Below, in pieces: positions 21,435 through 22,876 of a stretch of DNA of 46,711 nt (its first letter is position 1; each line of letters begins with the position of its first letter). The DNA comes from Candidatus Woesearchaeota archaeon (GTDB lineage: Archaea; Nanobdellota; Nanobdellia; SCGC-AAA011-G17; JAFCDX01), in assembly GCA_017609465.1 (NCBI GenBank), contig JAFCDX010000003.1, forward strand, positions 1 to 46,711, given 5' to 3'. The notes beneath the pieces are model-generated. The model was not told where the DNA came from, searched no databases, and saw only the letters and a list, made by a program, of their open reading frames with translations. The translations under genes and the position numbers were made by a program.

Positions 21435-21490
21435 TTAAATAATATTTATATAATGTAAAATATATATTAGAGTTAAATAATGTTTATATA
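21435..21490 (+). repeat. Imperfect 18-bp direct repeat with TTTATATA TATA boxes (candidate tandem promoters for ftsZ)
   Basis: TTAAATAATATTTATATA (21435-21452) and TTAAATAATGTTTATATA (21473-21490), one mismatch. Confidence 0.6.
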
Positions 21491-21512
21491 CAATAAAGAA
21501 ATAATTTAAATA

Positions 21513-21647
21513 GTTAACTTTAATTTGGGCGTTAAAGTTGAACTAATTTGGGCATGTATTTTAGTTCTAGTTTGAAGAGTATTTTGGGTATTAACTCTTT
21601 CTAAAGTGTAGTATGCATATTTAATATAAAAATATTATTATACTACA
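21513..21647 (+). promoter_or_regulatory. Structured ftsZ 5' region: three hairpins with TTTGGG in the loop plus a fourth AT-rich hairpin
   Basis: AACTTTAA-TTTGGGCG-TTAAAGTT (21516-21539); GAACTAA-TTTGGGCATGTATT-TTAGTTC (21540-21567); AAGAGT-ATTTTGGGTATTA-ACTCTT (21575-21599); TGTAGTAT..ATACTACA (21607-21647). Confidence 0.55.
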
Positions 21648-21686
21648 ACATATATATTCAAAAACAAACTAAAAGGGGGTAATAAA

Positions 21687-22775
21687 ATGGAGTTTTTGAT
21701 GCAAGATGCACTGAAAAATGCAGAATCAAACAATGCTGAAGACCTAAAAGTAGGTCAAGCAAACATAAAAGTATTTGGTGTAGGTGGAGGCGGTGGAAAT
21801 GCTGCCAGCTGGTTACACAAAAAAGGAATTAATGGTGCTGAGGTTATTATATGCAATACTGATAAACAGCACTTGGATATATGTTCTGCTGATCAAAAAA
21901 TATTGATTGGTAAGGAACTAACAAGAGGATTGGGCTGTGGAGGATACTTTGAAAAAGGTAAAGAAGCAGCTAAGGAAAGCATTCAGGAAATAAGAAATGC
22001 ACTAAAAGACGTAGATATGATATTTATATGTGCTGGAATGGGAGGAGGAACCGGTACTGGTGCGGCCCCTGTTATAGCAAAAATAGCAAAAGAAATGGGC
22101 GCTATAGTAATTGGTAGCGTAACAATGCCATTTAATATTGAAAGAGCAAGGATTGATAAAGCTGAATTTGGATTACAGCAATTAAGACAAGAATCAGACA
22201 CAGTTATCGTAGTTGACAATAATAAATTAGTTCAAATTGCAGGAAACTTACCTATTGAACAAGCATTTGCAGTAGCAAATGAGCTTATTAGTACAATGAT
22301 TAAAGGAATAGTTGAAACAATTGCATTGCCATCTTTAGTTAACTTGGATTATGCAGATGTCCAGACAATAATGAGCAATGGAGATGTATCTGTTATTGGT
22401 ATAGGAGAATCTGCATCAGAAAATAGGGTTGAAGAAGCCACGAGAAGAGCACTTACAAATCCATTATTGGAAGTTGATTATAGAGGTGCATCTGGTGCTC
22501 TGATACATGTAGCTGGTGGAAATGATCTAAGATTAGAAGAAGTTACCCAAATTGGTGAAATGGTAACATCAACTTTGGACTTGGATGCAAACATAATATG
22601 GGGTTCAAGAATTGAACCAAGTATGGAAGGAAAACTAAGAGTTATGACAATAATAACAGGAGTTAACTCTCCATATGTGCTTGGAAAAACAAGTCCAAAA
22701 ACAAAACAGCAAGAAGCTCAGAAAATGAGTAATGAGCTTGGAATAGAAATGGTTGGAGGCCAAGGATTTGCTTAA
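21687..22775 (+). CDS. ftsZ: Cell division protein FtsZ
   Basis: [33 protein letters not shown]; tubulin signature [17 protein letters not shown]-like GGGGG upstream. Confidence 0.97.
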
Positions 22776-22809: not shown

Positions 22810-22828
22810 AGTTTTTCGTAAAGAAAAA
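22810..22828 (+). repeat. Inverted repeat GTTTTTC-GTAAA-GAAAAAC downstream of ftsZ
   Basis: 7-bp perfect arms, 5-nt loop. Confidence 0.5.
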
Positions 22829-22846
22829 CCCCCTTAACGCCTCGTT

Positions 22847-22876
22847 TGCTAATGCTTCGGCATTAGCTTTTTTTTT
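22847..22876 (+). terminator. Intrinsic-type terminator for ftsZ: GCTAATGC-TTCG-GCATTAGC + poly-T
   Basis: 8-bp perfect stem, UUCG tetraloop, then a T run; lies between convergent ftsZ and ftsY. Confidence 0.85.

Follow-up and report, generated by a model that had tools for sequence, protein, structure and literature searches.

The window analysed here (46,711 nucleotides) opens a contig of 124 kb, of which it makes up the first 46.7 kb, in an 801-kb archaeal genome. It contains a cell division gene, ftsZ1, which is followed by a terminator and flanked by a divergent gatD-like gene (PF00710 and PF17763, with GatD_N slightly below its cutoff) and a convergent FtsY-like gene (PF00448). Upstream of ftsZ1, a small gene for an MJ1316-type protein (PF04457; 19947-20174, minus strand) overlaps the end of the gatD-like gene. 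The top FtsZ matches in a named collection, which may omit close relatives, are labelled Altiarchaeota and Aenigmatarchaeota and reach 54-61% identity; they point to an archaeon of DPANN type without fixing its exact lineage.

Table 1. Features at the ftsZ1 locus of the window (SD, Shine-Dalgarno sequence)
Feature	Position	Strand	Basis or remark
TATA box TTTATATA, predicted ftsZ1 promoter	21483..21490	+	sequence
Leader hairpin 1: 11-bp stem, hexaloop UUGGGC (21525-21530)	21514..21541	+	sequence, folding, conserved hairpin class; arms include AACTTTAA/TTAAAGTT; TTTGGG at 21524
Leader hairpin 2: GAACTAA/TTAGTTC, UUUGGGC within loop	21540..21567	+	sequence, folding; TTTGGG at 21547
Leader hairpin 3: GAAGAGT/ACTCTTT, UUUUGGGU within loop	21574..21600	+	sequence, folding; TTTGGG at 21583
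Conserved UUUCUAA motif between last loop hairpin and P4	21598..21604	+	alignment of 60 leaders
P4 hairpin TGTAGTAT/ATACTACA, conserved apical AUAUAAA..UUAUUGU-like part	21607..21647	+	alignment; own versus swapped arms
SD of ftsZ1, GGGGG	21675..21679	+	within AAGGGGGU, 21673-21680
ftsZ1 coding sequence, 362 aa	21687..22775	+	TIGR00065 FtsZ, 388 bits; PF00091 and PF12327; ATG at 21687
3'UTR anti-SD ACCCCCUU, perfect 8-nt complement of AAGGGGGU	22828..22835	+	adjoins the 3' side of a small hairpin (22811-22829), not in its loop
Terminator hairpin GCTAATGC-TTCG-GCATTAGC and T-run	22848..22876	+	sequence; loops of relatives sometimes bear an SD complement

The TATA box, the three TTTGGG copies with their stems and the fourth hairpin, here called P4, lie exactly where the initial annotation had placed them (Table 1). 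Its description of hairpin 1 was too modest, the structure being 11 bp closed by a UUGGGC hexaloop. The loops of hairpins 2 and 3 are larger (about 13-14 nt), and hairpin 3 stands directly before UUUCUAA, where relatives such as L018 have their last GGC hairpin. Folded singly, hairpins 1 to 4 gave z values of -3.0, -2.6, -0.8 and -2.5, so that only 1, 2 and 4 stand out. The whole 178-nt leader reached a z of -1.4 and was equalled by 20 of 200 shuffles; with folding so unexceptional, the window genome alone would not prove the case.

Comparison was extended to 61 genomes, namely the window's own and 60 relatives of the same order, in all of which an ftsZ orthologue was found. The 61 orthologous leaders were oriented and compared together with five second-copy ftsZ loci. 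Elsewhere in the class, the genomes searched from families f28 and f36 gave no close ftsZ1 orthologue at the threshold used, although other families have one.

Loop hairpins and P4 in related leaders

The ftsZ1 leaders of the relatives carry between one and five small hairpins each, with changing stems and a constant GG-containing loop. When hairpins with stems of 6 bp or more were counted in the 61 orthologous leaders, GGC was found in their loops 82 times; dinucleotide shuffles gave 3.6 on average and never more than 9. Shuffled AT-rich sequence does not, then, yield such hairpins at the comparable frequency that the initial annotation had named as a danger to its proposal. Strict hairpins with GGC or GGG loops numbered 83 (10.5 in shuffles) and occurred at least once in 50 of 61 leaders, or in 54 under a laxer hairpin rule. 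The commonest loop is UUGGCG, the form in the window being UUGGGC. CGGCUAA (L016, L017, L020, L024), UUGAGC (L123) and UUUGCG (L004) are also found, L143 bears GUGGCA or GUGGCG three times, and family f32 has UUGGGG or CGCCAA. The initially proposed constant loop thus exists, but what is constant is a GG-containing loop and not TTTGGG itself.

RNAalifold found no structure on a MAFFT alignment of the leaders because the number and spacing of the hairpins vary, and structure was therefore tested from anchored sites. All TTGGCG copies in the leaders were sampled blindly, their flanks being ignored, which gave 115 sites in 45 leaders. Of 6 flank positions, 4.56 paired when a flank met its own partner and 2.05 (sd 0.105) when partners were swapped. 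Among 112 such UUGGCG sites, eight stem pairs covary: paired cells amounted to 76.0% (41.7% after shuffling), double-sided changes to 339 (138 after shuffling), and the covariation score to 0.756, a value reached by none of 500 shuffles (0.200). When the partner was slid by one column, the score fell to 0.24-0.26. The stems are therefore free and covarying, and the loop is fixed.

Loops within one leader agree in type in 77 of 82 pairs (94%), as against 42% between leaders, and such concerted drift would be the trace expected if one factor read all the sites. Together with the enrichment of GGC loops and the covariation, it favours the original suggestion that varied stems with a constant loop are repeated recognition sites. 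Conservation of stems and loops, which that suggestion called for, extends across the order and into other orders of the class. In the window's closest relatives, from the same family, the loops have drifted to UUUGCG or GAGC (L004, L005) or are absent (L003), while the G5 SD, the C5 run and P4 are retained. The array was likewise not seen in the named relatives L032-L036, which are 54-61% identical. Relative to ftsZ1 the orientation of the loop is nearly constant, with 90 UUGGCG and 3 CGCCAA. In the leaders of L240 and L230 (family f32) and of L228 the usual loop is reverse-complemented and reads CGCCAA or CGCCCAA; both hairpins are flipped in L240 and L228, and close relatives of L240 bear UUGGGG on the same stems.

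On the 3' side of the last loop hairpin comes a UUUCUUAA-like sequence and then P4, whose arms fold better with their own partner (-11.3 kcal/mol) than with swapped ones (-7.0 kcal/mol; z -14.8, 74 loci). Since the P4 helix covaries, transcription probably begins upstream of it, which would place the RNA start before about -110. In the relatives, TATA-like boxes are concentrated at a distance of 30-60 nt ahead of the first strict hairpin. A start downstream of the hairpins, which would have removed them from the RNA, is not what the covarying P4 indicates; the start itself we infer to lie near 21512, in agreement with the earlier prediction from the TATA box. Judged by these comparisons, the loop hairpins, P4 and the 3' hairpin described below are real RNA structures.

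The 3'UTR element and the SD of ftsZ1

The picture of a regulatory leader stands, but it was incomplete: the leader is one half, and the other half is an element complementary to the SD in the 3'UTR. Most relatives carry CCCCC or CCCCCC in a hairpin loop downstream of the ftsZ1 stop, usually facing a GGGGG SD. The stems of this hairpin vary freely (AAGGGCA/UGCCCUU, GGACCUU/AAGGUCC, AAGCGGGU/ACCCGCUU), and over 84 loci the arms reach -17.9 kcal/mol with their own partner and -12.5 kcal/mol when swapped (z -15.0). GGGGG is a minority SD type in the window genome, where GGAGG-type sites before ATG exceed the control by about 90 and AGGGGG-type sites by about 10. The 16S-type anti-SD GGATCACCTCC is present in this genome, and GGGGG can therefore pair with it only through G-U wobble. 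No gene other than ftsZ1 combines a G5 SD with a downstream C5 in the part of the genome that was examined.

A first duplex test between the SD and windows around the C-run gave no difference between own and swapped partners within the order (p 0.40), because G5 and C5 are nearly fixed there. A later test took the longest complement between the SD region and the whole 110-nt 3'UTR, own or swapped. Own exceeded swapped at p = 0.0003 in other orders and at p = 0.002 within the order, where counts are not independent and the swapped control is conservative for close relatives. All 108 loci together gave a z of 6.0 (p 5e-5, the floor of the test), and drawing one species from each of 56 families gave a median z of 4.35 (5-95% range 3.5-5.3). 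The score attained by 83 of 108 ftsZ1 loci is reached by only 12 of 514 genes in two genomes, and about a quarter of ftsZ1 loci have no strong SD complement.

Where the SD differs from the usual form, its complement differs too. Changed SD/3'UTR pairs include GGAGGUGC/GCACCUCC (L173), UUGGAGGUG/CACCUCCAA (L214), CGGAGGUG/CACCUCCG (L218), ACCUCGGAG/CUCCGAGGU (L208), GGGGAGUG/CACUCCCC (L244 and L246), GGGAGGG/CCCUCCC (L226), GGUGGUG/CACCACC (L216), GGGGUGG/CCACCCC (L183), UGGGGUAAAC/GUUUACCCCA (L130) and GAGGCAAA/UUUGCCUC (L112 and L118), and in L223 the complement extends over 17 nt. Terminator hairpin loops bear the complement in L112 and L118 (UUUGCCUC), L129 (CCCUCCUU) and L136 (CUCCCC); in L112, L118 and L129 the SD has departed from GGGGG and the complement has relocated to that loop. 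By this comparative measure, the SD and the 3' element covary. L133 lacks the C-run, the GGGGG and the loop array alike. In family f32 the leader hairpins persist although the SD is of GGAGGG type and the 3' element is not clearly present, so the two halves can exist apart.

A different hairpin, such as GGGAAAAAG-AGGUGAUAA-CUUUUUCCC, was noticed within about 150 nt after the ftsZ1 stop in L007, L014, L019, L023 and L122. AGGUGAU, which is perfectly complementary to the 3' end of the 16S RNA, is exposed in its loop, and the hairpin may serve as a terminator or mask the SD of a following gene.

Specificity for ftsZ1 and comparison with known systems

A strict genome scan for hairpin clusters was underpowered, since the window's own array fails the strict rule, and it was replaced by a covariance model of the loop hairpin (R1), searched over the 61 whole genomes. 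The best matches concentrate at ftsZ1 leaders: 38 of the best 40 (E below 0.009), counted by hand against the places of ftsZ. Across the class, R1 also matches upstream of ftsZ1 in genomes outside the model (e.g. G106, G099, G092, G082 and G166). Use of the loop hairpin by other genes was considered and rejected, as the 12 off-target matches inspected were single at the scores that retrieved them and lay mostly inside open frames of at least 70 codons. The second ftsZ copies examined in the same genomes have neither loop hairpins nor a C-run; those at L116, L125 and L135 (genomes G045, G059 and G005) are about 70% identical to the FtsZ of the window, have an SD of GGAGG type and lack all the RNA elements.

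The leader has what is generally expected of a structured cis-regulatory leader, namely covarying 5'UTR helices conserved with one gene. Its anatomy is like that of the cis-regulatory leader families in Rfam 15, but the search of that collection returned no match up to E = 1 save an irrelevant tmRNA fragment match inside the gene. In the openly licensed literature searched, no paper was found that deals with the leader of ftsZ, or with an element in its 3'UTR, in these archaea. The idea of an undescribed archaeal ftsZ leader is consistent with both results. We regard the finding as a new RNA family that varies on kinds already known, 5'-3' UTR anti-SD pairing and multi-hairpin leaders.

In CsrA/RsmE leaders, several hairpins expose one short G-rich loop to a translational regulator, as the hairpins of the ftsZ1 array would do. 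CsrA reads ANGGA and belongs to a bacterial family. The ftsZ1 leader differs in its core (UGGC, GGGC or CGGC), in a loop type that drifts in concert and in a reader that is only putative; a GGA of CsrA/RsmE type was looked for in the loops and not found, their cores being UGGC, GGGC, CGGC, GAGC, GUGGC and GGGG.

The closest parallel for the 3' element is the icaR mRNA of Staphylococcus aureus, in which UCCCCUG in the 3'UTR pairs with UAGGGGG at the SD on the same transcript, so that ribosomes are blocked and RNase III is drawn in; both repression and RNase III cleavage have been shown (PMC3868564). The likeness lies in a 3'UTR C-run facing a G-rich SD of the same mRNA, here with an 8-nt complement in the window and own partners exceeding swapped ones in the 56-family sample. 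It is analogy only and not homology, for icaR is a bacterial gene for a transcription repressor and ftsZ lies in a different, archaeal mRNA. Unlike icaR, ftsZ1 shows compensatory changes in many families and has a 3' hairpin dedicated to the element as well as the constant-loop leader array. In the archaeon Haloferax volcanii, the 5' and 3' UTRs are required jointly for growth-phase translational control, but in other genes, with 5'UTRs that have no SD and with no base pairing shown (PMC2636863).

Proposed mechanism and alternatives

The reading that we hold to be probable is that 5'-3' UTR pairing masks the SD of ftsZ1 and is gated by a putative trans factor that reads the leader loops. The ftsZ1 mRNA would then carry a single gene between two regulatory RNA regions, one at either end. 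Its SD-complementary 3'UTR sequence, mostly held in a hairpin loop, would pair with the SD and mask it, and its 5' leader would present several hairpins with a common GG loop next to the structured P4. A trans-acting factor, most likely an RNA-binding protein, would read the loops at several sites and shift the mRNA between a locked state (SD masked, low FtsZ1) and an open one. We infer both that the pairing represses translation and that the loop reader is a protein.

The nature of the reader and the sign of control are where other explanations come nearest. A small RNA forming kissing loops, in place of a protein, is unlikely. The loops are the conserved, exposed part of the leader, and the concerted flip from UUGGGG to CGCCAA in two hairpins of L240 would be easy for a base-pairing partner. 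Yet neither the coding region of ftsZ1 nor its 3'UTR is enriched in loop complements, the 400 kb of G025 that were examined contain a triple CGCCAA cluster only where the ftsZ1 leader itself is read in antisense, and Rfam holds no match here. With no such enrichment and with concerted drift, a protein appears the more likely reader. It is rather less probable still that the same anatomy works with the opposite sign, the mRNA being looped so that its ends are protected or ribosomes recycled, and the leader loops binding a stabilising protein. The joint action of the two UTRs in Haloferax translation control (PMC2636863) would fit such activation, and the pairing involves the SD, yet sequence data do not fix the sign. 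On the other hand, it is the very core of the SD that the complement covers, so that competition with the 16S-type anti-SD GGATCACCTCC is to be expected, and such pairing represses in icaR (PMC3868564).

An attenuator, in which the last hairpin and the U-rich UUUCUUAA act during transcription under a loop-binding factor while the 3' element is a separate matter, is improbable. A U-rich motif does directly follow the last loop hairpin in many leaders (CUUUUUCUUA), but the U-tract is short, interrupted and missing in some (L016, L024), and the equally conserved P4 and SD complement downstream would be pointless for a pure attenuator. We give even less credence to inverted repeats acting in DNA, where they would be operators or cruciforms and the promoter would lie downstream of them, within P4: the TATAAA-like sequence within P4 and the few leaders with a reverse-complemented loop (L228, L240) are outweighed by the covariation of P4 and the loop stems as single-strand helices, by the nearly constant loop orientation and by the TATA-like boxes that cluster before the first hairpin. 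Chance production of hairpins and C/G runs by AT-rich sequence can be set aside almost entirely; it is compatible with the unremarkable folding of the single genome, but all comparative controls oppose it and the comparison has already refuted it.

SD masking gated by a loop reader may be part of something broader: an ancient DPANN cell-division RNA circuit, in which one factor reads a co-evolving array of interchangeable loops and thereby locks or unlocks the ribosome-binding site of ftsZ1 through 5'-3' UTR pairing. We lean equally for and against this proposition. Were it true, both the RNA family and its regulator would be undescribed, and a whole class would have conserved a 5'-3' anti-SD lock. 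How such very small, mostly uncultured archaea set their amount of FtsZ is not described in the sources found. With a conserved RNA element at its 5' end and another at its 3' end, the ftsZ1 mRNA offers many natural compensatory changes that are directly testable, and it would show that locks of the icaR type, formed by 5'-3' UTR pairing, have also been maintained by evolution in archaea; the array of constant loops on free stems, with its concerted drift, provides a handle for finding the loop-reading factor.

On contig C26 of genome G000 (minus strand, reverse-strand coordinates of about 55980-56750 and 56888-57683), two other genes have perfect SD/3'UTR complements of 8-9 nt (TTGGAGGTT and CAGGAGAA), which may be due to chance or may mark further users of the same lock.
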